DNA from: Ignavibacteria bacterium
Lineage (GTDB): Bacteria; Bacteroidota; Ignavibacteria; Ignavibacteriales; SURF-24
Direction: 5' to 3'
DNA: 64,000 nucleotides
Assembly (NCBI GenBank): GCA_025612375.1
Contig: JAAXKN010000020.1
Span: 1 to 64,000 of the forward strand
Part shown: one piece after another, positions 41,174 through 57,600 of the stretch
Numbering within the stretch: position 1 is the stretch's first letter
Layout: each line of letters begins with the position of its first letter
Program-made: the position numbers and the translations under genes
Notes under the pieces: model-generated
What the model was told of the DNA's origin: nothing
Databases searched by the model: none
What the model saw: the letters and a program-made list of their open reading frames with translations, nothing else

Positions 41174-43432
41174 ATGAAAAACAATATTTCAGAAACTGAA
41201 CTGGCCAGGCTGATCAGTGATGATGCAATGAGCTTCAGGAACCGCATTATGCTATTCAGAGTGCACTGGCTTACCATACTTATGATTACAGTTCTTGTGA
41301 CATTCCTGGCGGGAATATATGCCGTGAGGGCTCCCGATGTTTATTCCTCAATTACCATGCTCAGGGTATCAAAACCGCAGGGCAATATACTGGAAGCTCC
41401 CCTGATTGCAGAGTTCTCCGATCAAAAGTCGACTTTTGTGGAAAATGAAATTGAGGTCCTGAAAAGCTATTCCGTACGCGAGAAGGTTGCTCATCTGCTT
41501 ATTGATTCGCTGAAGAATAACCGGTTCCCGGAGTACTATGTAATATTCAGTCATGATGGGCAGATAAAATCCGCCAGGCCTGCCCTCCGCCCGGTCTATG
41601 AAATAGTAAAGACGCTCAGCAAGGTTGTCAGTATTGAACAGAAGAATAACCTGGAGATAATAAACATTTCGGCTGAATCAGTTTCCGCATATGAGGCTGC
41701 GCTGATAGCAAATATTTACGCCAAGGTTTATCACGACATGAACCTGGGGTTCAACCGCCAACAGACGATGAATGTAAGAGAGTTTCTGGAAAATCAAAGC
41801 GAAGATAAACATAAAAAGCTCCTGGAAGCAGAAAACGCAATGAAAGATTACCAGGAAAAAGGAGGCATTGTGGCACTTGATGCGCAGTCCAACGCGCTCA
41901 TCGGCCAGCTGACCGACTATGAATCCAGAAAAAACGCAGCAAAAATTGAGCTGACGGTTGTAGAAAAGACGCTTGGTGATTATAAAAAAGAACTTGCCAG
42001 GCAGGAGCCCCGCATAAAGGATTATCTCGACAAGTACGCGATTGAACCATACCTGGAGGAGCTCCAGAAACAGATTGCGCAGTATGAGGTGAAGAAGGAC
42101 ATTGCGCTCAATAACGGGACAGACAACAGCCGGGCAGAAGTGATTAACAGCTACAACATGAAAATTGACCAGCTGAAGGAAAGCCGCGACAAGAAGCTTG
42201 AGATATTCAAGGCAGGCATGCTTGCCTTAAGCAGTGATGAAGTCAAGCAGCTTGTCCAGAAGGTGCTGGATGCAGAAGTAAAGTACCACGGGCTTTCTGC
42301 TTCATACAATGTTATTAATTCAATAGTGAGGAATTATGAATCGGAGTTTGACGCGCTGCCCAAAAGGACGATTGACCTGGCAAGGCTTGAAAGGGAAAAG
42401 AGGGAATCTGAAAAACTGTACCTTCTTATACAGGAGAAGTACCAGGAGGCATTGATAAATGAGCAGTCGACTCCGGGCAATGTTCTTATTATAGACCCAG
42501 CCAGAATCCCTATGGAAGCATCCAGGCCGAACAGAAAAGTCATACTGCTGGTGGGTATAATGTCGGGCCTCCTTTTGGGATCAGGGTTTGTCGTGATAAG
42601 GAATATTTTTGACAAAACCGTAAAGACACCCGAAGACATAGAGAGGTTAAATATAAACCTGATAGGCTGGGTTCCCCGCTTTGAATACATCCCGGGCGGC
42701 GGGGAGAACGCTTCTGAATTTATAGTGCATTATAAACCGAACTCAGTTCCAAGCGAGGCTTACAGGGCCTTAAGGACAAGGATTCAGTTCTCAAGGGTTA
42801 ACTGGAACTCAATCAGGACAATCCTGATTACTTCCAGCTCACCGCAGGAAGGAAAGACGACATCTTCAGTAAACATTGCCGGAAGCTTTGCGCAGGCGGG
42901 GAAAAGGACAGTAATAATTGACTGTGATCTGAGGAAGCCAAGAGTGCACAAGGTGTTAAATCAGTTCAAGGCGCCGGGACTGGTGGAATACATATTTGAA
43001 AAGGCGTCATACGAAGATATAGTAAGAAAAACTGAAACAGAAGACCTTTTCCTAATCCCGGCAGGGACAATTCCTACAAACCCTTCGGAAATACTGGCCT
43101 CGGCACAGTTCATGGGTCTGATTGAAAAGCTGAAGGAGGATTTTGAAATAATTGTAATTGATTCGCCTCCCATACTGGCAGTAACCGATGCTGAAATTTT
43201 GTCGCGGATTGCAGATCTGTCGCTTTTAGTGGCAGCCGCGGAAATCACTGAAATTGATGTAATGAAAAGAGCCGCTGAACTTCTGCAGCATGAGCAGGGC
43301 ACATTTATAGGCATACTCCTTAACAATTTTATTTATAAAAACGGCTACGGCAGCTACTATAAAAACTATTACTATTACCAGAGCCCGGTGAGGGACAAAA
43401 AAGAAAGGCTGCTGACCTTCAGCAGGCATTAA
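41174..43432 (+). CDS. Wzc-type polysaccharide copolymerase and tyrosine autokinase (BY-kinase)
   Basis: 752 residues. Wzz-like chain-length domain: transmembrane helix about 32-52, periplasmic coiled region about 100-440 (long Glu/Lys heptads and PNRK motif ASRPNRKVI), second helix about 450-470, then a cytoplasmic BY-kinase domain at about 520-720 with Walker A SSSPQEGKTTSSVNIA, Walker A' VIIDCDLRKPR and Walker B IIVIDSPPIL. The C-terminal tail is Tyr-rich (YGSYYKNYYYYQ), the autophosphorylation cluster. It sets chain length and export of a Wzy-dependent polysaccharide. First gene of the locus. Start ATG behind a weak GGGAACCGG site. Confidence 0.95.
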   Translation: MKNNISETELARLISDDAMSFRNRIMLFRVHWLTILMITVLVTFLAGIYAVRAPDVYSSITMLRVSKPQGNILEAPLIAEFSDQKSTFVENEIEVLKSYSVREKVAHLLIDSLKNNRFPEYYVIFSHDGQIKSARPALRPVYEIVKTLSKVVSIEQKNNLEIINISAESVSAYEAALIANIYAKVYHDMNLGFNRQQTMNVREFLENQSEDKHKKLLEAENAMKDYQEKGGIVALDAQSNALIGQLTDYESRKNAAKIELTVVEKTLGDYKKELARQEPRIKDYLDKYAIEPYLEELQKQIAQYEVKKDIALNNGTDNSRAEVINSYNMKIDQLKESRDKKLEIFKAGMLALSSDEVKQLVQKVLDAEVKYHGLSASYNVINSIVRNYESEFDALPKRTIDLARLEREKRESEKLYLLIQEKYQEALINEQSTPGNVLIIDPARIPMEASRPNRKVILLVGIMSGLLLGSGFVVIRNIFDKTVKTPEDIERLNINLIGWVPRFEYIPGGGENASEFIVHYKPNSVPSEAYRALRTRIQFSRVNWNSIRTILITSSSPQEGKTTSSVNIAGSFAQAGKRTVIIDCDLRKPRVHKVLNQFKAPGLVEYIFEKASYEDIVRKTETEDLFLIPAGTIPTNPSEILASAQFMGLIEKLKEDFEIIVIDSPPILAVTDAEILSRIADLSLLVAAAEITEIDVMKRAAELLQHEQGTFIGILLNNFIYKNGYGSYYKNYYYYQSPVRDKKERLLTFSRH

Positions 43433-43504: not shown

Positions 43505-44581
43505 ATGCACGACTATAAGGGTACATACGGACTTGATAAGATTGCCGCTTATTCCACAATAGAAGATCTAAAAAGATCAGGCGGCAGCGTGAGCTATCCA
43601 AAGATTTCCGGCAGGAGAATCCTGGTTACAGGCGGAGCGGGCTTCATAGGTTCAAACATGTTGGAGGACTTCCTGAAAAATGACAATGAGGTTGTCTGCC
43701 TGGACAATTTTTCAACAGGCAAGGTTGAAAACATTAAGGAATTTCTCTCATGCCCGAAGTTTCACCTCGCAATAGGGGATATCCGTAACATTCAGGACTG
43801 CAGAAAAGCAGTTGACGGAGTGGATGTGATATTTCATGAAGCGGCATTGGGATCGGTGCCAAGGTCGCTTCAGGATCCGATTACCTCAAATGAGGTGAAT
43901 GTAAGCGGGTTTCTGAATATGCTGGTAGCGGCCAAAGACGCAAATGTGAGGCGTTTTATATATGCAGCAAGTTCATCGGCTTATGGCGACTCGCAGGCTC
44001 TTCCTAAGGTTGAGTCTTCTATAGGCAAGCCGGTCTCTCCTTACGCTGTTACAAAATATACAAATGAATTATATGCTCATGTCTTCGGGCTGCATTATGG
44101 CATGGAGATAATAGGGCTGAGGTATTTTAACGTATTCGGCCCGAAGCAGAATCCCGAAGGAGCATATGCTGCCGTGATACCAAAGTTTACTGCACTGCTG
44201 ATGTCGCACAAGGCGCCAATGGTCAACGGCGACGGCAATATTTCGCGTGATTTTACGTATGTGGAAAATGTTATTCAGATGAATCACCTGGCTGCAGTGT
44301 GCAAAAATGAGGATGCATTTGGAGAGGTATTTAATACTGCGGCGGGGGAGCGCAACAGCCTGAACTCACTTATTAAATATCTCAGGGAGTACCTGAGCCG
44401 TTATGACCCCGGGGTTGCAGGTGTAGATGCGTGCTATGGGCCCATGCGCAGCGGGGACATACAGCACTCATTTGCATCGATTGAAAAAGCAGAAAAAATA
44501 CTGGGCTACAAGCCTCAGTTTAATTTTGAACAGGGATTAAAACTATCAATAGAATGGTATTGGAAAAATCTTTCACACTAA
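43505..44581 (+). CDS. NAD-dependent UDP-hexose 4-epimerase, WbpP/TviC-like
   Basis: 358-residue SDR enzyme. A leading about 38-residue extension (as in the WbpP/TviC group), Rossmann motif GGAGFIG (43-49), catalytic Y180xxxK184 (SPYAVTKYTNELY), and FNVFGPKQNPEGAYAAVIPKF. The FG..QNP..AYAAVIP block is the signature of UDP-GlcNAc/GalNAc(A) 4-epimerases. Supplies UDP-GalNAc or its uronic form to the surface glycan. No Shine-Dalgarno; the 14-bp A-rich repeat abuts the ATG. Overlaps wzx by 28 bases. Confidence 0.88.
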   Translation: MHDYKGTYGLDKIAAYSTIEDLKRSGGSVSYPKISGRRILVTGGAGFIGSNMLEDFLKNDNEVVCLDNFSTGKVENIKEFLSCPKFHLAIGDIRNIQDCRKAVDGVDVIFHEAALGSVPRSLQDPITSNEVNVSGFLNMLVAAKDANVRRFIYAASSSAYGDSQALPKVESSIGKPVSPYAVTKYTNELYAHVFGLHYGMEIIGLRYFNVFGPKQNPEGAYAAVIPKFTALLMSHKAPMVNGDGNISRDFTYVENVIQMNHLAAVCKNEDAFGEVFNTAAGERNSLNSLIKYLREYLSRYDPGVAGVDACYGPMRSGDIQHSFASIEKAEKILGYKPQFNFEQGLKLSIEWYWKNLSH

Positions 44582-45861
44582 AAGAAAATTTTATATGGAC
44601 ACTTTTGGGAAATGTTTTTTATGCATTTACCCAGTGGCTGATACTGCTTATACTGGCCAGGAAAGGAAACCCGGCAATGGTTGGGCAGTTTGCCCTTGCA
44701 ATGGCCTTGACCGCTCCTGTCATTTTGTTCTCAAATCTCAAGCTGCGGGATGTACAGGCAACTGACGTTAGTAATCAATTTGAGTTTAAGCACTATTTTA
44801 CTCTGAGAGCCTGGACGGTGCTGGCGGCTCTCTTGATGGTTGCAGTAATCAGCCTTTGGGGAAATTACCAGACGGATACAGTTTCCATAATACTTATGGT
44901 TGCGTGCATCAAAGGGGTTGAGTCAATTAGCGACATTGTCTACGGGAGACACCAGCAGAAGGAAAATATGAGGCTTATATCATTGTCGCTATTCTTAAGG
45001 GGAGCAATTTCGGCTTTGGCTTTTTATCTGGCAATGAAATTTTCAGGCTCCCTTCTCTGGAGCTGTACGGGGCTATTGCTGGTGAGGCTCGGTGTACTTA
45101 TTCTTTACGACTTCAAAAGCATCGGTATCAAAGCGGAACTACTTAAAGCTGCTGACAAAATTTCTTTTACGGCAAAGTCAATGATGAAGGGGATAAAAGA
45201 CAGAAAAGCATCTGAACTTCTGCGCAGGTCTTTCCCTCTTGGGTTTGCAGCCCTGGCGGTCTCTCTTGTGCCGAATATACCGAACTACGTTTTGGAAAGA
45301 TACCATGGTGAATATGAGCTTGGAGTGTTTTCTTCACTGATGTATCTGCAGGTAATTGGAAACACACTCGTAATGGCTTTAGGGCAGGCTGCAAGCCCCA
45401 GGCTTTCCAGGTTATTTGACCGTGGGAATACATTTCAGTTTACCGGGTTTTTTATACGGCTTCTCTCGGGAGCGGCTGCTTTGGGGATTCTGGGTATTGC
45501 GGCTGCCGGATTATTTGGAGAAAGTATACTTGATCTGCTGCTTGGTAAAATATACACCTCACATAATGACTTGTTTATTCTTGTTATGATCTCAGGCGGA
45601 ATATCTTACGTCGTTTCATTTACAAGCTTTGCACTGTTATCAATAAAAAGATACCAGGCCCAGCTATGGATAAATATTACCGTTTTGGTTTTTTCAATCA
45701 TAATAAGTTTTGCGCTGATAAGCCAAAGGGGAGCCTTGGGTGCTGCATACAGCCTCATCTTTACAATGCTCATGCAGGCAATTCTCAATATGTCGGTTGT
45801 GTTTTACGAAATTTACAAAGAGCATAACATTAGGCTGATAAGAAATGGAATACGTTTATAA
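44554..45861 (+). CDS. Wzx-type oligosaccharide flippase (MOP superfamily)
   Basis: 435 residues with about 12 helices. N-terminal LLGNVFYAFTQWLILLILAR and GNPAMVGQFALAMALTAPV are typical of Wzx/RfbX flippases. The later blocks (RSFPLGFAALAVSLVPNIP, LLGKIYTSHNDLFIL) also fit. Flips undecaprenyl-diphosphate-linked repeat units across the inner membrane. The start codon is within the epimerase gene, consistent with an operon. Overlaps the next polymerase gene by 17 bases. Confidence 0.88.
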   Translation: MVLEKSFTLKENFIWTLLGNVFYAFTQWLILLILARKGNPAMVGQFALAMALTAPVILFSNLKLRDVQATDVSNQFEFKHYFTLRAWTVLAALLMVAVISLWGNYQTDTVSIILMVACIKGVESISDIVYGRHQQKENMRLISLSLFLRGAISALAFYLAMKFSGSLLWSCTGLLLVRLGVLILYDFKSIGIKAELLKAADKISFTAKSMMKGIKDRKASELLRRSFPLGFAALAVSLVPNIPNYVLERYHGEYELGVFSSLMYLQVIGNTLVMALGQAASPRLSRLFDRGNTFQFTGFFIRLLSGAAALGILGIAAAGLFGESILDLLLGKIYTSHNDLFILVMISGGISYVVSFTSFALLSIKRYQAQLWINITVLVFSIIISFALISQRGALGAAYSLIFTMLMQAILNMSVVFYEIYKEHNIRLIRNGIRL

Positions 45862-47293
45862 CAGCATTAAGAGCGGCATAAAAAAAGATAAATATACCAA
45901 CTATTCAGTCAGCCTTGCTGCAGTGTATGTTATTATACTGTCGGCTTTGGTGCTGGACAGGAGGTTCGACCACTGGTTTTTAATACCGGTGGGGCTTGCA
46001 GGCATCCTTTCCGGAGCTGATGCGGTCAAATGGTTCCGGCAGAAGGATTCCATTTTTGACGTGGAAGGCATAGTTGGAATTATAGGATTTCATTTCTTTT
46101 TCCTGGCGCCCATGATGCATGTTTACTTTGATTACTGGATGAAGACAATCGACAGGCCGCAGGACTGGCGCGACTGGCTTGGGGGTATGGCTATAGTTAA
46201 TTCTGTAGGGCTGATGTTTTACGGGTATGCAAAGGACAGGGTGCAGAGGAGGTTTTCTCATTCAAAAAGTTTCTGGGCCCTTAATGCCGGAGTGTTCCAT
46301 CCGCTGGCGGCCTCACTGCTTATAATCAGCTTTGGGCTGCAGGTGTGGGTTTTTATCAGACAGGGAGGCCTCCTGGGTTATATAATGGCATTCTCTAAAA
46401 ATGAAGGGGCATTTGAAGGGATGGGATGGATCTTTATGATCTCCGAGAGTTTCCCGATCCTGTTTTTGCTTTATGTGGTATTTCTTCTAAAAGAAAGAAA
46501 GATCAGCAGCTCATGGATAATAGTCATTCTGATGTGCGTCTTTTTTGCCCTCAAGATGATCTTCGGGGGCCTCAGGGGAAGCAGGAGCAATACCATCTGG
46601 GGCTTGTTCTGGGCAATAGGGATAATTGACCTCTGGTTAAAGAAAGTGTCCAAAAGAGCGATCCTGATCTTTGCATTATTTATCCTTGCCTTCATGTACA
46701 TTTATGGGTTTTACAAACAGGGGGGAATAGAGGCCGCAGGAATTTTAAGGGAGGATAAAAGCCGTTCCCGCTTTGAGCAGACGTATAACAGGTCGTTTGA
46801 AGCTGTACTGCTGGGTGACTTTGCAAGAAGCGATGTTCAGGCGTACCTGCTTTACCGGCTGAGTAAAAACAGTACCGGTTATGAATACGCCTATGGAAGG
46901 ACGTATCTAGGCGCCCTTTCCTTAATAGTTCCCAAGGGCATCTGGAAAGACAGGCCGCTTACAAAAGTAAAAGAGGGGGAGGAAATTCAGGGAGGTATCG
47001 GAGCCAGCCGAATATACGGCCTTGCCGGTGAGGCAATGCTGAACTTTGGTCCTTTTGCAGCAGTGTTCTTCTTCGTGATATTCGGCTTTGCTGTAGGGCT
47101 TATTAAACGTTTTGCAGATTTTCTGGAATACAAGGACGCCAGGGTGATCCTGATACCGTTTTTGATAAACCTGGCGTTTTTAGCCCTGGGCTCCGACTCT
47201 GATAATATTGTATTCTTCCTGATAAAACAGGGCTTCCTGCCCTTTATGCTGATATATCTCTCATCACGCAAATACTTATTTCAATTAAACTGA
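45845..47293 (+). CDS. O-antigen/capsule polymerase (Wzy-like)
   Basis: 482 residues with about 11 or 12 helices and poor overall conservation, as usual for Wzy. A GLRGSRSNTIWG motif after a helix and a periplasmic loop of about 100 residues (about 295-390, EDKSRSRFEQTYNRSFE) are consistent with the repeat-unit polymerase family that has R-G-S at the head of a loop. Position between Wzx and GT4 in a Wzc-headed operon supports it. A ligase (WaaL-like) role cannot be excluded by sequence alone. Confidence 0.8.
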   Translation: MEYVYNSIKSGIKKDKYTNYSVSLAAVYVIILSALVLDRRFDHWFLIPVGLAGILSGADAVKWFRQKDSIFDVEGIVGIIGFHFFFLAPMMHVYFDYWMKTIDRPQDWRDWLGGMAIVNSVGLMFYGYAKDRVQRRFSHSKSFWALNAGVFHPLAASLLIISFGLQVWVFIRQGGLLGYIMAFSKNEGAFEGMGWIFMISESFPILFLLYVVFLLKERKISSSWIIVILMCVFFALKMIFGGLRGSRSNTIWGLFWAIGIIDLWLKKVSKRAILIFALFILAFMYIYGFYKQGGIEAAGILREDKSRSRFEQTYNRSFEAVLLGDFARSDVQAYLLYRLSKNSTGYEYAYGRTYLGALSLIVPKGIWKDRPLTKVKEGEEIQGGIGASRIYGLAGEAMLNFGPFAAVFFFVIFGFAVGLIKRFADFLEYKDARVILIPFLINLAFLALGSDSDNIVFFLIKQGFLPFMLIYLSSRKYLFQLN

Positions 47294-47302
47294 AAAAAGA
47301 AT

Positions 47303-48553
47303 ATGGAACTGGTATTTATTACAGAGGCAAGGTTTATTAAAGACTCAGACGGGAGAATATTTTCCACCGACGGCACTTTCTCAAAAGAGTTATGGGCGAG
47401 GTATCTAAGAAGCTTCAGCCACGTATATGTTATTGCACGCGTAGGCAGAAACGCAGAAACTAAAATGGAGGAAAACTTCAGGGCGGATTCATCTCAAGTG
47501 TCTTTTATTGAGGTGCCTTACTACACCGGGCTTAAAGGCTGCTTAAAGAACTACATAGAAATAAAAAAAATAATAAAAGGCAGCATCCTAAAAGGCAGGG
47601 CGTATATCTGCAGAATACCGGGCATTCTGGGTACAATTGCAGCGGGTGAGCTAAGGAAAAAAGGCCTGCCTTATGGAACAGAAGCAGCAGGTGATCCGTA
47701 TGAAGTCTTTGCCCCCGGAGCTGTTAAGAGCCCCCTGCGCCCGATTTTCAGGATTATTATGACGCGCCAGATGAAAAATATTGTCCTGAATTCATCTGCT
47801 GTTTTGTATGTAACCAGAAAGGCATTGCAGAACCGGTATCCTGCAAAGCCGGGAACGTTTACTGTCAGCGCCTCAAATGTAATGCTGAAGGAAGAAAACA
47901 TACTGAAAACTCCCGTAACGTTTAAACGGAAAGGCGAATTCAACATAATTTCCATCGGTTCGCTTGAGCAGATGTATAAGGCGCCCGACGTTACGCTTAA
48001 GGCTATTCAGCTGCTGAACCAAAACCAGTTCCCATGCAGGCTGACCTGGATAGGGGAGGGAAAATACAAGCAGGATATGATACTTCTTTCCAAAGAGCTG
48101 GGAATTGAAGACAGGGTATTATTTACAGGAAGTGTTCCCCCGGGCGAGGGCGTAAGAAGATATCTGGATACTTCAGATATTTTTGTCCTGGCATCCAGAA
48201 CCGAGGGGCTGCCAAGGGCCATGATTGAGGCAATGGGAAGAGGACTTCCGTGTATAGGTACAAATGCCGGAGGAATACCGGAACTTCTTGAAGAGGAAGC
48301 AATTGTTCCTAAAAATAATCCGGAAGCTTTGTTTGAAAGAATTAAACGCCTGATTGAGAACCCTGAAATGGCTGAAGGTCAGGCTAATAGAAATTTATCG
48401 GAAGCACGCACCTACATTTCAGAACTGCTTGATATAAAAAGAAGAAGTTTTTATGAAACATTAAAAGCAACCGTTCAAAGGGGAAGCGAACCATGCCAAA
48501 ACAGAAGATCTGCTTTATTGTCTCAACCGCCTTTACCGCGCATGCATTTTTAG
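47303..48553 (+). CDS. Family 4 glycosyltransferase
   Basis: 416 residues with GT-B architecture. N-terminal MELVFITEARFIKD and the C-terminal nucleotide-sugar block ADTSDIFVLASRTEGLPRAMIEAMGRGLPCIGTNAGGIPELL (E...E retaining motif) define GT4. Also SIGSLEQMYKAPDVTLKAI and LTWIGEGKYKQDM. Retaining enzyme that adds one sugar of the repeat unit on the cytosolic side. Specificity not inferable. Its end overlaps the next gene by 61 bases in another frame, an unusually long overlap. Confidence 0.88.
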   Translation: MELVFITEARFIKDSDGRIFSTDGTFSKELWARYLRSFSHVYVIARVGRNAETKMEENFRADSSQVSFIEVPYYTGLKGCLKNYIEIKKIIKGSILKGRAYICRIPGILGTIAAGELRKKGLPYGTEAAGDPYEVFAPGAVKSPLRPIFRIIMTRQMKNIVLNSSAVLYVTRKALQNRYPAKPGTFTVSASNVMLKEENILKTPVTFKRKGEFNIISIGSLEQMYKAPDVTLKAIQLLNQNQFPCRLTWIGEGKYKQDMILLSKELGIEDRVLFTGSVPPGEGVRRYLDTSDIFVLASRTEGLPRAMIEAMGRGLPCIGTNAGGIPELLEEEAIVPKNNPEALFERIKRLIENPEMAEGQANRNLSEARTYISELLDIKRRSFYETLKATVQRGSEPCQNRRSALLSQPPLPRMHF

Positions 48554-50307
48554 CCGGGCACATTGAAGCCCTGTCTGAAGAGCATGAGGTTTATCTGGCG
48601 GGAAATTTTTCTGAAGAAGACATGCCTGTACTAAGCAGGCTTAAGATTGCAGGATATATGAGTATCCCGGTTCACAGAAAGATTAAGCCTGTTCAGGACG
48701 TAAGAGCCGTCATTAAGCTGGCAAAATATTTCAGGCAGATGAAATTTTCTGCCATTCATTCAGTTACGCCTAAGGCAGGACTGGCCGCAGCGGCCGCGGG
48801 GAGGCTTGCAGGTGTGCCTAACAGAATACATATCTTTACCGGGCAGGTATGGCATACAAAAAAAGGGATCTTCAGGTTTATCCTTAAAACAATTGACAGG
48901 CTTATTGCAGCTTTATCGACAAACATACTGGTCGACGGCAGTTCGCAGAGAGAGTTTCTGGCAAGTGAAAAGGTAATAAAAAAAGAAAACTCCCTTGTCT
49001 TCGGGAAAGGTTCCATAAGCGGCGTTGACTTAAGGGCTTTCAGACCTAAGGAAAACCTGAGAAGTGAAATAAGAAAAAGCATGAGTATTCCTGAAGAAAA
49101 AATTGTATTCCTTTTCCTTGGGCGGCTGAACAGGGACAAAGGAATTCCGGAACTAATTGAGGCATTCAGGAGGCTCAAGGAAAAAGATCCACGTGTGTTT
49201 TTATTGCTGGCCGGCTATGATGAGGAAGATCTTGCAGCACTCGCACGTGAAAGACTTTCACCTGGCGACTTTTACTTTTACGGCCCGACTGCAAAACCCC
49301 AGGAGCTTTACCAGGCCTGCGACATATTCTGCCTGCCCAGCCACAGGGAGGGATTTGGAAGCAGTGTGATTGAGGCCTCCGCGTGTGCAAAGGCTGTAAT
49401 TGCAAGTGATACCTACGGGCTCATGGATGCAATGATAGATAATGCGACAGGCCTGAGGCACAAAGCCGGGGACGCAGAATCCCTGTTCCGGAAGATGAAG
49501 CAGCTTTCTGAAGATGATGAACTCAGAATCAGGCTGGGTGAAAAAGGAGAGAAATATGTAAGAGAAAACTTTTCTTCGGAAATAATAACGGGTTACTGGA
49601 AGAGCTTCTATGGGGAATTATTAAAAAGTGAAGTATCCTTTAAGAATTACAGGAGTGCTTACCGGAGGCTGATAAAGCCCGCGGCAGATTTTATATTCTC
49701 TCTTTTGCTCATGGCTTTAATGCTGCCGGTATTTGCTGTAACCATTCTGCTGCTTCTGATATTCAATGAAGGGAAGGTATTCTTTTTACAGACTCGTCCG
49801 GGCTTAAATGGAAGCCCTTTCAGAATAATAAAGTTCAGGACGATGAACGAAAGGAAAGATGAAAAGGGGGATCTTCTGCCGGATGAAAAGCGGCTTATTC
49901 CGGTTGGGAAAATGATAAGAAAGCTTTCAATTGATGAAATACCCCAGCTGTTTAATGTAATAAAAGGCGACATGTCGCTAATAGGTCCAAGACCTTTACT
50001 GCCGGAATACTTGCCATTGTACAGTTCGTCTCAAAAGAGGCGGCATGAAGTAAAGCCGGGGATAACCGGGTGGGCGCAGGTAAACGGAAGAAATCAGGTC
50101 AGCTGGGAGAAAAAATTCAATATGGATATTTATTACGTGGATAACATCAATTTTTCCCTGGATCTGAAAATAGCAGTGCTGACAATAATAAAAATTATTA
50201 AAAGAGAGGGAGTCAGTTCAGCTACTTCACAAACGATGGAAAAATTTTCCGGGAGCGGATTGTTAAAGGTTTCGGCCGGGGCACAGGAGATTAAAATCTG
50301 CAGTTAA
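48493..50307 (+). CDS. Fusion of GT4 glycosyltransferase and PglC-type phosphoglycosyl transferase
   Basis: 604-residue bifunctional protein. Residues 1 to about 380: GT4 fold (FIVSTAFTAHAFLAGHIEAL, FLGRLNRDKGIPELIEAF, FCLPSHREGFGSSVIEASAC). Residues about 390-590: bacterial sugar transferase with re-entrant membrane helix (KPAADFIFSLLLMALMLP), FRTMN, catalytic dyad D481-E482 in SIDEIPQLFNVIKGDMSL, IGPRPLLPEYL and KPGITGWAQVNGRN. The second domain would load a sugar phosphate onto undecaprenyl phosphate (first membrane step); the first would add the next sugar. In Campylobacter these are separate PglC and PglA. Start ATG 48493 behind AAGGGGAA. Next gene 38 bases on. Confidence 0.9.
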   Translation: MPKQKICFIVSTAFTAHAFLAGHIEALSEEHEVYLAGNFSEEDMPVLSRLKIAGYMSIPVHRKIKPVQDVRAVIKLAKYFRQMKFSAIHSVTPKAGLAAAAAGRLAGVPNRIHIFTGQVWHTKKGIFRFILKTIDRLIAALSTNILVDGSSQREFLASEKVIKKENSLVFGKGSISGVDLRAFRPKENLRSEIRKSMSIPEEKIVFLFLGRLNRDKGIPELIEAFRRLKEKDPRVFLLLAGYDEEDLAALARERLSPGDFYFYGPTAKPQELYQACDIFCLPSHREGFGSSVIEASACAKAVIASDTYGLMDAMIDNATGLRHKAGDAESLFRKMKQLSEDDELRIRLGEKGEKYVRENFSSEIITGYWKSFYGELLKSEVSFKNYRSAYRRLIKPAADFIFSLLLMALMLPVFAVTILLLLIFNEGKVFFLQTRPGLNGSPFRIIKFRTMNERKDEKGDLLPDEKRLIPVGKMIRKLSIDEIPQLFNVIKGDMSLIGPRPLLPEYLPLYSSSQKRRHEVKPGITGWAQVNGRNQVSWEKKFNMDIYYVDNINFSLDLKIAVLTIIKIIKREGVSSATSQTMEKFSGSGLLKVSAGAQEIKICS

Positions 50308-50345: not shown

Positions 50346-50996
50346 ATGAGACCGATAGCAGTTTTTGGAGGCGGGGGCTTCGGCAAGGAAGTCCAGGCAT
50401 GGATTCAGCAGATAGGGGGATGGGAGTTTATCGGTTTTTTTGATGATAATAAGCCTGTAAATTCTCTGGTAAATGATGCTCCTGTTCTTGGGGGGCTTGA
50501 AGAATTAAATTGTTTTCAGTATGAGCTGGATGTGGTTTTTGCAATAGGGGATCCGGTAATTAAAAAAAGGATAATTGAGAGTCTGACAAACAAGAAAATT
50601 AAGTTCCCCGTTTTAATACACCCGTCGGCTGTCATCGGGAACCCGAAATATGTAGAGATCGGGGCCGGAACAATTATTGCCCCGAATACAGTTGTTACAA
50701 CAAACATTGTAATTGGAAAGCATGTAGCCCTGAATTATTCATGCACCGTGGGGCATGACACGGCAATAAAAGATTATTCTGCCTTTATGCCCTGCGTAAG
50801 CATCTCGGGTGAGGTTGAAATCGGGGAATGTGTTTATGTCGGCACAGGGGCAAGAGTTATCAACAGAAAAAATATCGGTGATAATACAGTTGTGGGTGCG
50901 GGGGCTGTTGTGACAAAGTCCCTGCCTGAATACTGTACTGCAGTCGGTGTGCCAGCAAGGCCAATTAAATATCACCGTATGAAAAAAGCGGGCTAG
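50346..50996 (+). CDS. PglD-type sugar N-acetyltransferase
   Basis: 216 residues. An N-terminal nucleotide-binding part (AVFGGGGFGKEVQAWI, then FIGFFDDN) is followed by a left-handed beta-helix of hexapeptide repeats (about 95-205: VEIGAGTIIAPNTVV, NYSCTVGHDTAI, VYVGTGARVINRKNIG). The catalytic histidine is likely in VGHDTA. Family members acetylate UDP-4-amino-sugars, as PglD does to make UDP-di-N-acetylbacillosamine. Very strong AAGGAGGGAAG site. Last gene of the forward operon. A tandem repeat starts 18 bases after its stop. Confidence 0.9.
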   Translation: MRPIAVFGGGGFGKEVQAWIQQIGGWEFIGFFDDNKPVNSLVNDAPVLGGLEELNCFQYELDVVFAIGDPVIKKRIIESLTNKKIKFPVLIHPSAVIGNPKYVEIGAGTIIAPNTVVTTNIVIGKHVALNYSCTVGHDTAIKDYSAFMPCVSISGEVEIGECVYVGTGARVINRKNIGDNTVVGAGAVVTKSLPEYCTAVGVPARPIKYHRMKKAG

Positions 50997-51292: not shown

Positions 51293-52450
51293 TCAGGCCG
51301 CAAAGGACTTTGTTCCTGCCTTTTCAAAGCATTTAATTATTGTACCTGTTACACGCTCTAGCTCCTCCTCAGTCATGCCTGATCCTGAAGGAAGGCAGAG
51401 TCCCCGTTCAAAAAGACCATCAGATATCCCGCATCCGTAATAGGGGAAACCGCTGAATACGGGCTGAAGGTGCATGGGCTTCCACAGGGGGCGCGATTCA
51501 ATATTTTCAGCTTCAAGTGCAAGCCTCAGATCTTCTCTTGTAAGGCCCCCGCTTTGCCTTGGATCAATTGTAATGCAGGTGAGCCAGCGGTTGGAACGGG
51601 CATCCTGCAGTTCTTCCTGAAATCCTATTCCCGGGAGCTTATCAAGGCTGTTCCTGTAATAGGAATAATTAGCTCTTCTCTGTGCTATCCTTTTATCAAG
51701 CACCCTCATCTGCCCCCGTCCTATACCTGCGCTGATGTTGCTCATCCTGTAGTTGTATCCGGTCTGTGAGTGCTGGTAGTGCGGGGCGAGGTCCCGGGCC
51801 TGGGCCGAGAGAAAGCGGGCTTTTTCTACGTATTCCTTATTATTGGAAAGGAGTGCCCCGCCTCCTGAAGTGGTAATGATTTTGTTCCCGTTAAAGGAAA
51901 TGACGCCCATATCACCGAAAGTGGCAAGGTGCCTGTCTTTATAAAATGAACCCAGTGCCTCGGCGGCATCTTCTATTACCGGGATATCATAGTGCATGGA
52001 TATCTGCATTATGCTCTCCATCTCAGAAGGGTTTCCGTAAAGATGGACCAGAATTATGGCTTTAGGTTTTTTACCATTTCTTAGCCTCTCTTTTATTGCT
52101 CTTTCCAGCATTAGAGGACTCATATTCCAAGATTCTTCCTCACTGTCCACAAAGACCGGTACCGCGTTCTGATAAATAACCGGATTTGCTGAGGCGGCAA
52201 AAGTAAAGCTTGAGCAGAGCACCTCGTCGCCATGTTTTATTCCAAGCGTTACAAGTGCCATATGGATTGCAGCCGTGCCCGAATTAAGGGCCACCGAATG
52301 CCGTGCACCGGTATAGCCTGAGAGGTCACGTTCAAAGCCGTCGACATTTGGACCAAGCGGCGCAATCCAGTTGGATGAAAATGCATCATTTATAAATGAA
52401 ATTTCCTCTCCTCCCATGTGCGGCGGTGAAAGCCAAATTTTACTTTTCAT
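51293..52450 (-). CDS. PglE-type UDP-4-keto-sugar aminotransferase (DegT/DnrJ/EryC1)
   Basis: 385-residue PLP enzyme. Conserved opening LSPPHMGGEEISFI, ALNSGTAAIHMAL, EDAAEALGSF with the PLP-contacting D161, and FNGNKIITTSGGGAL with Schiff-base Lys190. Start ATG behind AAGGAG. The closest functional match is PglE of Campylobacter, which adds an amino group to UDP-4-keto-6-deoxy-GlcNAc; the DegT family also covers many other amino-sugar enzymes, so the exact product rests on its pairing with pglF and pglD here. Confidence 0.9.
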   Translation of the reverse strand: MKSKIWLSPPHMGGEEISFINDAFSSNWIAPLGPNVDGFERDLSGYTGARHSVALNSGTAAIHMALVTLGIKHGDEVLCSSFTFAASANPVIYQNAVPVFVDSEEESWNMSPLMLERAIKERLRNGKKPKAIILVHLYGNPSEMESIMQISMHYDIPVIEDAAEALGSFYKDRHLATFGDMGVISFNGNKIITTSGGGALLSNNKEYVEKARFLSAQARDLAPHYQHSQTGYNYRMSNISAGIGRGQMRVLDKRIAQRRANYSYYRNSLDKLPGIGFQEELQDARSNRWLTCITIDPRQSGGLTREDLRLALEAENIESRPLWKPMHLQPVFSGFPYYGCGISDGLFERGLCLPSGSGMTEEELERVTGTIIKCFEKAGTKSFAA

Positions 52451-52530
52451 TTATGCAGTGCTCCTTTTCCATTAAATTTCTTTTTGTATTGTGGATTAAC
52501 TTTCTTAAAAAAGCTATGAGCCGTAAGCGC

Positions 52531-54516
52531 TTATGCCGTCTGTAAGTTTGCCAGTGACAAATTCATCCCGGAATTACCTGCCCTGAAGGCTTTTGTGACT
52601 GCATGGCTCTTCCTGTCCTGAGGCTGAAACTCAGGGATGAGTTCACATAAAATGTCTATTATTTCGCCGCGTGATAACTGCCCGTCGGCTGCTTCAAAAT
52701 AGTTCAGGCTTTCAGAAAGAAGGTTTGAAATGCAGCTGCTTGCATTACGGGCAATCAGTATTTTGTCGTGGATTGTCTTTTCATAGTGTTCGCCTTCAAT
52801 AAAGAGTTCTTCATAAAGTTTTTCACCGGGGCGGAGGCCTGTTACTTTTATTTCTATATCTGTGCCTTCAGACAGTCCGGCAAGCCTAATTATATCTTTT
52901 GCAAGATCAATTATCTTAACCGGCTGGCCCATATCCAGCACAAAAACTTCTCCGCCTTTATTGAGAACCGAGGCCTGAAGAACGAGCTGTACGGCTTCAG
53001 GTATGGTCATGAAATATCTTATTATTTCGGGATGCGTAATTGTAATAGGGCCGCCATTCTGCAGCTGCTTCTGAAACGTTCTTACCACGCTGCCGCGGCT
53101 GCCCAGGACGTTGCCGAAACGCACTGCAGAGTAGGACCAGCCAGTTTTCCTTGCAGCCTCCAGGACAATCATTTCAGTTGCACGCTTGCTTGCTCCCATA
53201 ATGTTTGTGGGATTAACTGCCTTATCGGAAGAAATGGATATAAAGTGCCTGACGCCGTACTCAACAGCCAGGGAAACTATATTTTTTGTACCCAGTATAT
53301 TATTTGTCACGGCCTCCTGGGGGTTGCTTTCCATTAGCGGAACATGCTTATGGGCAGCGGCATGGAAAATTACGTCAGGATAAAATTCATCAAAAATGCC
53401 TCTTAATCTTTCCCTGCTTCTGAGGTCGGCTATGCGTGCTGAAATTACTGTATCCAGCTTTTCAGATCCTGTAAATTCTTTTTTTATGGCCAGGAGCTCC
53501 TGCTCAATTTCAAATATGGAGTTTTCCCCATGGCCGATAAGAATCATTCCGGCAGGATTGCACCTGAGCACCTGGCGGCATAGTTCGCTTCCTATGGAGC
53601 CTCCTGCCCCGGTAATTAAAACTTTTTTCCCTTTAAGGAGCAGCTTTACTTTTGCATTATCCGTAATTACAGGTTCCCTGCGCAGAAGGTCTTCAATCTG
53701 TATCTTTCTGATTTTGCTTATATTTACATTCCCGTTCAGAATCTCAAATATTCCGGGTACAGTCAGTGTTTCCACGCCCGCTGCCTCACAGTTGGACATT
53801 ATCTGTCTTATTTTTATTCCTGAGGCCATGGGCATGGCAATAATGACCTTGCTGACGTTCAGTTCCTTTATAACTGAAGCAATATCATCTGTTGATCCCT
53901 TAATGGGGATACCTCTAAGTTTCAGGTTATGTTTTGATGAATCATCATCCACAAAAGCTACCGGGTTAAGTCCCAGGTGTGCATTGCGCTGCATTTCGAG
54001 AGCTATGCTGAAGCCCGATTCTCCGGCCCCGGCAATCAGGACACTCTGCATCGGATGCTTTTTCAGTAATACCTTCTGGTTGGCAAGGTCGATAAAGCGG
54101 ATGCTGAACCTGATAGAGACTATGGTAATCATGCTGAAGATTCCATCAAGCAAAGGAAGTGACACCGGGAAAATGACAAACGGGTGAACCTGTGACTTTT
54201 CCAGGGCATAGAAAAAAGAAAACTCAACAGCTACTGCAACTGCAGAGATAAATATAGCATAAGCCAATTCATCCACACTTGCCATGCGCCAGAGTCTGCC
54301 GTAGAACCTGCTTACTCCAAGAACAGCCAGTTTAATTAAGGTGAATAACAGGGAATAAACCAGCAGCGGGGAGCTGTACAAATCCCAGTTTACCGTTCCA
54401 TCCAGACGGATGAAGAGTGCCAGATAAGGATTGAAGAAAAAGATGATTATGTCCATCAGAAGGAAATGACGGATGCACAGCTTTTTAATCTGGTTTGATA
54501 ATATTTCTAATGCCAT
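52531..54516 (-). CDS. PglF/CapD-type UDP-GlcNAc 4,6-dehydratase
   Basis: 661-residue membrane protein. Four helices (about 15-135), then a soluble Rossmann domain (about 145-275, VLIAGAGESGFS) and a catalytic SDR domain (about 295-590) with TGAGGSIGSELCRQV and ISSDKAVNPTNIMGASKRATEM. The S/T-DK plus M-x-x-x-K arrangement, in place of YxxxK, is the mark of long-chain 4,6-dehydratases such as PglF, CapD and FlaA1-like WbpM. It converts UDP-GlcNAc to the 4-keto-6-deoxy sugar. Directly upstream of pglE on the same strand, 80 bases apart. Start ATG, no strong ribosome site. Confidence 0.93.
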   Translation of the reverse strand: MALEILSNQIKKLCIRHFLLMDIIIFFFNPYLALFIRLDGTVNWDLYSSPLLVYSLLFTLIKLAVLGVSRFYGRLWRMASVDELAYAIFISAVAVAVEFSFFYALEKSQVHPFVIFPVSLPLLDGIFSMITIVSIRFSIRFIDLANQKVLLKKHPMQSVLIAGAGESGFSIALEMQRNAHLGLNPVAFVDDDSSKHNLKLRGIPIKGSTDDIASVIKELNVSKVIIAMPMASGIKIRQIMSNCEAAGVETLTVPGIFEILNGNVNISKIRKIQIEDLLRREPVITDNAKVKLLLKGKKVLITGAGGSIGSELCRQVLRCNPAGMILIGHGENSIFEIEQELLAIKKEFTGSEKLDTVISARIADLRSRERLRGIFDEFYPDVIFHAAAHKHVPLMESNPQEAVTNNILGTKNIVSLAVEYGVRHFISISSDKAVNPTNIMGASKRATEMIVLEAARKTGWSYSAVRFGNVLGSRGSVVRTFQKQLQNGGPITITHPEIIRYFMTIPEAVQLVLQASVLNKGGEVFVLDMGQPVKIIDLAKDIIRLAGLSEGTDIEIKVTGLRPGEKLYEELFIEGEHYEKTIHDKILIARNASSCISNLLSESLNYFEAADGQLSRGEIIDILCELIPEFQPQDRKSHAVTKAFRAGNSGMNLSLANLQTA

Positions 54517-54665: not shown

Positions 54666-57600
54666 TTACTTCATCATTATCATTTTTAATGTCCTGACGA
54701 AGCTTCTTTCCGAAGCAACATCCCTGGATTCCATCCTGAGCAGGTAAATCCCGCTTGCAAGGCGGCTTGCATTCCATACCTGCTTATATGATCCGGCAGA
54801 CTGGATCTCATTGACCAGTTCAGCGACCCTCTCGCCGAGCATATTGTAAATGGTAAGGTTTACCCTGCTTAGAGACGGCAGTTCATAGCTGATTGTTGTA
54901 GCAGGATTAAACGGGTTAGGATAATTCTGCACGAGGTTATACTCACGGGGGAGTATTTCAACGTCGGACACATCAGAGTAGGCGTATCCTCCGTTCCTGC
55001 TGATGAATTTAACTCTGTATGAGTATTTCCCGTCTGAAGGAACCTTGTCACTGAATTCAAAATCCTTCAGCCCTTCAGAGGAAACAAGGGCGATATTCTT
55101 CCAGCTGCCTTGTCCGGCTGAAGTTCTCTCAAGCTCAAAATTACCCGCTACGTTTAAGTTTGTATGCCAGGTAAGTCTTACGTTATTTTCACTTGCCGAG
55201 GTGGAGAACTTTTCAAAAACGGGGCTGGCGCTTACCTTGAATGTCCTGGTAGAGCCATCCTGTCCCCAGTAGTTTAATCCATTTACACCGTTCTGGAAGT
55301 GCTTTAGAATCTCGGAAGAAGAAAGCTCTGTGTTATGGAAAGCCAGCTCATCGAGAGTACCTTTTAAGAGGCTTGCGCCTAAGAAGCTTCCGATTTCGAG
55401 TTTTGACGCTGGTGATGAAAAATCCACGCTGAAGCTCTTGTTCATAGAGGCTGAGAGTACTCCGTCAACATAGAGTTTTACGTCACCGGTTGAGCCGTTC
55501 CTGGTTGCAGCAATGTGGTGCCACTGGTTGTCGGTTACTGTTGTGCCGTAGAGTGAAGCCGTCTGGCCTCCGCCTGACAAGTAGAAGCGGGCCTTACCAT
55601 TTACAGGATTTATTCCAATGTACCAGTTGGCTCCTGTAGAGGAGAAGCTCCGGCTTATAATGGCCTGGAAGGCTGGAGGAGGAGTCTGGGCCTTGAACCA
55701 GGTTTCAACCGAGAAATTTCCCTTGGAAGTAAAGTCGAGTGATGTATTTGCCGGAACCGTCAGTTTTGAGGTGGTGCCGTCAAAATCCTGAGCCGAAGCA
55801 ACCTTACCCTGGGTGTTGGGGGTAGTAGTTCCCGAGGCATTATTTACCTGAAGGAAATCAGCATAATTTCCAGAGGTCTGCTCATCCAGCTTCCAGTAGC
55901 TCACCAGACCGGCAGGAGTTACAGTAGCCTCGGCAACTGTGATTGTAAATGTCTGAACCGCAGCAGGATTAAGTCCGTTATCTGCTTTTACACTTACCTG
56001 GAAAGTTCCGGCCAGTGCGGGAGTCCACTGAATAAGTCCGGTTGCGGGGTCTATTGTCATGGCTACATCGGGGGACGCTGTCAGTGAATACGTTGGAGCA
56101 GGTGTCCCGGCAGCATTTACGTCATAGGAGTACAGTTCACCCACCGTGGCCGCTGTCACAGGAGACGAAGTAATGACCGGTTCAGGTGAAAGTATGTAGC
56201 CCTGGCCTGCCATTCCGTTCTGGAAGTGCTGAAGTATCTCTGATGCTGAAAGTTCAGCGCTGTGGATTGCCACTTCGTCAAGAGTTCCTTTAAGGAGGCT
56301 GCCCCCCAGGAAGCTCCCTACTTCAAGCTTTGAAGTGGAACCGGAGAAATCCACATTAAAGCTCTTGTTAGTGCCGGCAGTGAGCACTCCGTCGACATAT
56401 AGCTTGATATCACCCGTTGCACCATTTCTTGTAGCTGCAATGTGGTGCCACTGGTTATCTGTAACAGTTGTGCCATAGAGTGACGCTGTCTGACCGCCAC
56501 CTGAGATGTAGAATCTTGCTTTTCCATTGGTGGGGTTAATGCCCATGTACCAGTTTGCTCCTGTAGAGGAGAAGCTCCGGCTTAAGATAGCCTGGAACTG
56601 TGAAGGGGGAGTCTGGGACATGAACCAGGCTTCAAGTGAAAAGCTTCCTTTGGAAGTAAAGTCAAGCGAAGCACTGGCTGGAACAGAGATCTTTGAAGTT
56701 ACGCCGTCGAAATACTGTGCACCGCCGACTTTCCCCTGAAGAACAGGACTGGAGCTTCCGGCGGCATTATTTATCTTCTTAAAATCGGAATAACTTCCTG
56801 AGGTCTGCTCATCCAGCTTCCAGTAGCTGATCATGCCTGAATAAGGTGCCTGTGCTACAGTGATTGAAAACGTCTGAACCGCAGCAGGATTAAGCCCGTT
56901 ATCAGCCTTAACGCTTACCTGGAAAGTTCCGGCGGCAGACGGGGTCCAGCGGATTACTCCTGTTACAGGATCAATTGTCATAGTCCCGTCAGGAGACGCT
57001 GTAAGTGAATACGCCGGAGCAGGAGTTCCTGTTGCATTTACGTCATATGTATAAAGTACGCCCACTGTGGCAGCTATTACCGGTGAAGAAGTAATGACCG
57101 GTTCGGGTGAAAGGATGTAGCCCTGACCCAGTGCGCCGTTCTGAAAATGCTTCAGGATCCCGGAAGCAGAAAGTTCAGTGTTATGGAAAGCCAGTTCGTC
57201 AAGTGTTCCTTTTAAGAGGCTTCCGCCAAGTAAGCTTCCCACTTCAAGCTTAGAGACAGGTGAAGCAAAGTCCACGCTGAAGCTCTTGTTCATAGTTGCA
57301 GAAAGAGCGCCGTCAACATAGAGTTTTATGTCACCGGTAGTTCCGTTTCTTGTAGCGGCAATGTGGTGCCACTGGTTGTCGGTTACTGTTGTACCGTAGA
57401 GTGAAGCAGTCTGTCCCCCGCCTGATAAATAGAAGCGGGCCTTGCCATTTACAGGGTTTACGCCCACGTACCAGGTGGCTCCATTTGAGGAGATGCTCCG
57501 GCTAATAAGGGCCTGGAATGCTGAAGGCGGAGTCTGGGCTTTGAACCACATTTCCACAGAGAAGCTTCCCAGGGAAGTAAAGTCAAGTGATGGATTTGCC

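Follow-up and report, generated by a model that had tools for sequence, protein, structure and literature searches.

A GT4 glycosyltransferase and a PglC-type phosphoglycosyl transferase in one open reading frame of an Ignavibacteria bacterium

Can the enzyme that initiates a lipid-linked glycan and the enzyme that adds its second sugar be one and the same polypeptide? The question is raised by a gene in a 64,000-nucleotide stretch of Ignavibacteria bacterium DNA (GenBank assembly GCA_025612375.1, contig JAAXKN010000020.1, positions 1 to 64,000; hereafter the window), in which a glycosyltransferase (GT) of family 4 (GT4) runs on into a phosphoglycosyl transferase (PGT) of the PglC type. We consider it likely that this gene, which would have arisen by fusion of adjacent GT4 and PGT genes, encodes an enzyme with two activities that initiates a surface polysaccharide of the Wzx/Wzy type. 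The gene and its parts are as follows, where pLDDT is the predicted local distance difference test score and CcPglA is PglA of Campylobacter concisus.

48493–50307, + strand: fused GT4–monotopic PGT gene, 604 amino acids (open reading frame (ORF), Pfam, model)
48493–49629, + strand: GT4 module with the GT-B fold, residues 1–379 (Pfam; structure match to CcPglA, Z 41.9)
49630–49656, + strand: linker, residues 380–388 (no in-frame stop or start codon; pLDDT <50 at residues 382–386)
49657–50256, + strand: PglC-type PGT module, residues 389–588 (phmmer, Foldseek)
49933–49938, + strand: codons of the catalytic Asp481-Glu482 (sequence reading)

The frame is open over all 604 codons and holds a complete GT4 and a complete PGT domain, as a sequence-only reading of the window had described, and by this architecture the product belongs to the bifunctional GT-PGT fusions. 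The Pfam families which that reading expected of the whole protein were all matched, namely Glyco_trans_4_4 on residues 55–158, Glycos_transf_1 on residues 191–354 (3e-40) and Bac_transf (PF02397) on residues 395–569 (3.4e-59, 199.8 bits against a cut-off of 27), and the catalytic pair lies at residues 481 and 482 as it had proposed. Among PDB sequences, the GT half is matched best by the solved C. concisus PglA and the PGT half by the solved PglC. The AlphaFold2 model consists of two confident domains (mean pLDDT 88.1) separated by a low-confidence hinge at residues 382–386 and followed by a disordered tail (residues 578–604); its predicted template modelling score of 0.68 means that no trust should be placed in how the two domains are oriented relative to one another. 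In the input alignment the C-terminal ends of the rows for unfused GTs were misplaced, and the model of each domain was still confident. The GT4 gene upstream overlaps the fused gene by 61 nucleotides (48493–48553) in a different frame.

The PGT half resembles PglC throughout. Residues 389–588 align with C. concisus PglC (CcPglC) from its first methionine, opposite which stands Ala389, to its C-terminal tail (phmmer E 1.2e-69, 238 bits), and the half superimposes on CcPglC (8e37) with a template modelling (TM) score of 0.87 in Foldseek. Besides the Asp-Glu dyad it carries a PRP motif at residues 499–501. The re-entrant helix expected of such an enzyme is predicted by the model as two helices (residues 389–409 and 411–424) with a break beside Pro412. 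Collinearity extends up to the TMEKFSG C-terminal tail of CcPglC and includes Phe585, which aligns with the CcPglC phenylalanine; the comparison of the aromatic box consists of this one residue. A conserved C-terminal phenylalanine is given as a mark of diacetylbacillosamine (diNAcBac) PGTs in one study (PMC10942596). Elsewhere in the source genome (contigs C3, C11 and C21) there are four further Bac_transf matches: L001 has a large-PGT architecture, L002 also matches CoA_binding_3 weakly, L004 holds part of the domain in a frame of 368 aa, and L005 is a short match.

Is the single frame genuine? A stop or frameshift near nucleotide 49640 in raw reads had been named as an observation that would speak against a fusion, and in the assembled sequence the frame is stop-free there: the junction stretch GELLKSEVSFKNYRSAYRRLIK contains none. 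Its one weak point is a run of five A at 49623–49627, at which an assembly or sequencing error could have joined two genes. One added A would create a TGA at 49629–49631, exactly where homologous GTs end, most homologues are split at the junction, and the source genome is a draft of 140 contigs. The PGT frame, however, contains no ATG, GTG or TTG from 49573 until 49705, and the first usual start codon, at 49705, falls inside the re-entrant helix. The two-gene state is thus not one error away, because the PGT would still have no usual start codon; no fewer than two independent errors would have to be assumed. As similar fusions are also present in other records, we regard an artefactual joining as very unlikely.

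The relatives of the gene were surveyed by whole-genome searches of 1619 genomes, some of them searched twice. The set comprised relatives, the order and the phylum to which the window belongs and, in addition, the phyla to which a Thiothrix genome, a Desulfocapsaceae genome and a Lachnospiraceae genome belong. At the ORF level, about 62 PglC-like genes were inspected; they were drawn from the best hits and do not estimate a frequency. Nearly all of them are separate genes, often immediately after a GT4 gene. This GT4-then-PGT order recurs in the phylum of the window, in L122 and L123 of the Pseudomonadota, and in the phyla that include the Desulfocapsaceae and Lachnospiraceae genomes, and in relatives pglD/E-like genes often come next. 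The best full-length match to the fusion is the GT and PGT of genome G291 taken together (L055), in which the TAA stop of the GT gene abuts the ATG of the PGT gene in frame. The same zero spacing is seen in L058, L059 and L086. Such abutting in-frame pairs can illustrate a route to fusion, for which read-through or one substitution would suffice.

Several candidate fusions were rejected at this level. The searches read through stops, and the seemingly full-length matches in the phylum (G291, G175, G269, G074, G205 and others) are pairs of genes; L062, with a long apparent open frame, is split at the ORF level, and L025 is two genes. A contig search with the single fusion protein gave distant matches only. 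No fused homologue was found within the genus or family of the window, and no further fusion with its GT4 subfamily among the genomes surveyed.

That homologues might all be split at the same place had been offered as a second objection to the fusion. Most are indeed split there, but Deinococcus and one genome of the window's own order have fusions. The latter, G446, encodes a 560-aa GT4-PGT fusion (L107:1931-3613) whose GT4 half gave no blastp alignment to that of the window. A plasmid of Deinococcus sp. NW-56 (L120) encodes the 581-aa GT4-PGT fusion WP_158679946.1, and a plasmid of Deinococcus sp. KNUC1210 has a 614-aa frame across GT4 and PGT (L121:5872-7716). In the PLSDB table for KNUC1210 the PGT is a coding sequence of its own from 7087, and nothing is listed for the GT. 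In the tree of GT halves, the window, NW-56 and KNUC1210 occupy three well-separated places, and a single origin of their fusions was rejected on this tree (approximately unbiased test, p 1.5e-6); the PGT tree was mostly unresolved. GT4-PGT fusion has most likely arisen more than once, judging from the tree of GT halves, out of a widespread gene order. Fusions of other kinds were also encountered: a 642-aa protein of Fluoribacter gormanii (L035:4597-6525) in which a family 2 GT domain (GT2) precedes Bac_transf, and a 418-aa PGT-PglD fusion in G629 (L097:2757-4013) whose acetyltransferase is of the kind that makes the donor of the PGT.

The GT half is a more distant relative of its Campylobacter counterpart. 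Residues 10–370 match C. concisus PglA with an E value of 2e-21, and the CcPglA structure 8dqd ranks first for this half by both phmmer and Foldseek (TM 0.82 on the target); in a second structure comparison it ties for first, with the above Z over model residues 4–379. The identity, however, is only 22–24% (24% in the structural alignment), and by its motifs and its place in the GT tree the half belongs to a GT4 clade with FTGQVW and EGFG, separate from the more PglA-like clade with ITGLG and EGxPR. Members of the former lie beside PglC-type genes in three phyla: that of the window, Pseudomonadota (on a plasmid of Sulfitobacter) and one more. The CcPglA structure paper is said to describe E113 and P281 as PglA-specific, the latter selecting N-acetylgalactosamine (GalNAc) over N-acetylglucosamine (GlcNAc). 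In the alignment the fusion has T116 and G289 at these positions, so GalNAc is not predicted as the second sugar. By its sequence, then, the GT half is a relative of PglA rather than PglA itself. The second sugar probably comes from a uridine diphosphate (UDP)-sugar and is possibly an N-acetylhexosamine (HexNAc). The equation of the two halves with PglC and PglA, made in the sequence-only reading, is supported for the PGT and not for the GT, on account of its 24% identity, its other clade and these two residues.

What the two activities would serve can be read from the neighbouring genes:

41174–43432, + strand: Wzc-like chain-length/tyrosine kinase protein (Wzz, GNVR and TIGR01007)
43505–44581, + strand: TviC-like protein of the UDP-HexNAc(A) C4-epimerase family (scoring under the TviC cut-off)
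44554–45861, + strand: Wzx-like flippase (Polysacc_synt, PF01943)
45845–47293, + strand: protein of polytopic appearance at the place of a Wzy polymerase (no family match; putative role from place and hydrophobic sequence)
47303–48553, + strand: second GT4 glycosyltransferase (Pfam), the one overlapping the fused gene
50346–50996, + strand: PglD-like sugar N-acetyltransferase (TIGR03570, 211 bits, above cut-off; PglD_N)
51293–52450, − strand: PglE/LegC-like DegT-family aminotransferase (family models)
52531–54516, − strand: PglF-like membrane nucleotide-sugar 4,6-dehydratase (CoA_binding_3 and Polysacc_synt_2)

Because PglD-, PglE- and PglF-like genes adjoin the fusion, the first donor is probably UDP-diNAcBac. 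The domain matches and these genes alongside also bear out consecutive steps as the likely function of the two halves. The pglE- and pglF-like genes (51293–54516) lie on the strand opposite the PGT and pglD-like genes; their counterparts are co-directional in L055, L069 and L071. Beyond them, at 54666–60398 and beside the polysaccharide locus, is a gene for a 1910-aa repetitive protein with a FNPATTI-type C-terminal sorting-like tail.

A diNAcBac gene set might also be taken to prime a glycan for protein glycosylation, either a Campylobacter-type N-glycan or an O-glycan. The order of genes in pgl loci resembles GT4-PGT-PglD, and the gene set and order of the window in turn resemble those loci. 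No match to STT3/PglB (PF02516) was found, however, in the whole source genome by a search that scored in four archaeal controls, and Wzc-like and Wzx-like genes lie within the locus itself. These two observations make protein N-glycosylation less likely than a surface polysaccharide, and we judge a protein-glycosylation role to be very unlikely overall, with O-glycosylation by a PglL-type O-oligosaccharyltransferase as a conceivable form of it. The Campylobacter N-glycan comparison drawn by the sequence-only reading accordingly does not carry over at the level of the pathway. A Wzx/Wzy-type polysaccharide that would start with diNAcBac is the best reading of these genes.

In the mechanism that we propose, the C-terminal PGT would transfer diNAcBac-1-phosphate from UDP-diNAcBac, supplied by the neighbouring PglF/E/D-like enzymes, to undecaprenyl phosphate (Und-P) at the cytosolic face of the membrane. 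The tethered N-terminal GT4 would then add the second sugar and yield an undecaprenyl diphosphate (Und-PP)-linked disaccharide for further GTs. The gene itself may have come from adjacent GT4 and PGT genes, in that order, of which the former lost its stop codon and the latter its start codon. Several points weigh against this interpretation. The five-A run stays at the junction, and the sequence is known from the assembly alone. The aminotransferase is nearest to the LegC model yet scores under its cut-off, so that UDP-diNAcBac itself is a presumed donor. Furthermore, since PglA is only a distant relative of the GT half, the assignment of this half to the second step on Und-PP-diNAcBac draws on the gene neighbourhood and on the fusion.

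The fusion might be real and yet not couple the first two steps. The GT4 half might instead perform another step, adding a later sugar of the repeat unit; or the tether might be neutral, a stop loss fixed by drift and giving no channelling. In favour of this alternative are the position of the GT half outside the PglA-like clade, without the PglA residues named above, the identical gene order in the fused and unfused states, from which fusion need not be adaptive, and the lack of fused homologues in the searched genus and family. Placement of the same GT4 subfamily directly before PglC-type genes in several phyla nevertheless favours the second step, and the recurrence of fusions hints at some benefit; we hold this alternative to be unlikely. 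The order of the modules, which had been taken as a hint of channelling, is no argument for it, because it mirrors the unfused order of GT4 then pglC-like gene. Beyond a bifunctional initiating enzyme, we suggest only tentatively, and with more doubt than belief, that the tether creates a two-step synthase which passes Und-PP-diNAcBac straight to the GT4 site and adds a second sugar other than GalNAc, with the repeated fusions reflecting selection for coupling. Any kinetic gain would belong to such a synthase, which, if it exists, would commit scarce Und-P to one disaccharide.

Bifunctional monotopic PGTs (Bi-PGTs), with a domain at either end of the monotopic PGT core, are a named class in a study (PMC10942596) that cites the network analysis of O'Toole et al. 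2021. The window's protein shares with this class an extra functional domain on that core. Glycosyltransferases are reportedly among the three common kinds of fusion partner named in the abstract of the network study. C. concisus PglC (8g1n, 8e37) and PglA (8dqd) share with the window's protein both folds, the Asp-Glu dyad, the PglC tail and the consecutive steps, but they are separate proteins, and the window differs from C. concisus further in the low identity and missing donor residues of its GT half and in the lack of an STT3 match. Equivalent steps, likened here by described function, are performed by another separate pair, EpsL and EpsD of Bacillus subtilis, which makes a diNAcBac-initiated exopolysaccharide whose second step is catalysed by a GT4 with UDP-GlcNAc (PMC10653937). 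WP_158679946.1 has the same GT4-PGT architecture, with 35% identity end to end, but its GT half comes from another GT4 clade and it is annotated as a sugar transferase only. Neisseria PglB is a fusion of a PGT with an acetyltransferase. The L097 fusion and that of the window both join a PglC-type PGT to a pathway neighbour, the partner being C-terminal and PglD-type in the former and an N-terminal GT4 in the latter.

The fusion thus extends the published Bi-PGT class and is a modest find. What it adds, modestly, are in-frame split relatives that show the fusion route, independent origins, and a GT partner that is not PglA proper. It suggests that two enzymes act jointly at the start of a polysaccharide and offers a single polypeptide in which one can measure how far the first two membrane steps are coupled. 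Together with its split in-frame relatives, it forms a natural series on how tethering relates to flux or product commitment.
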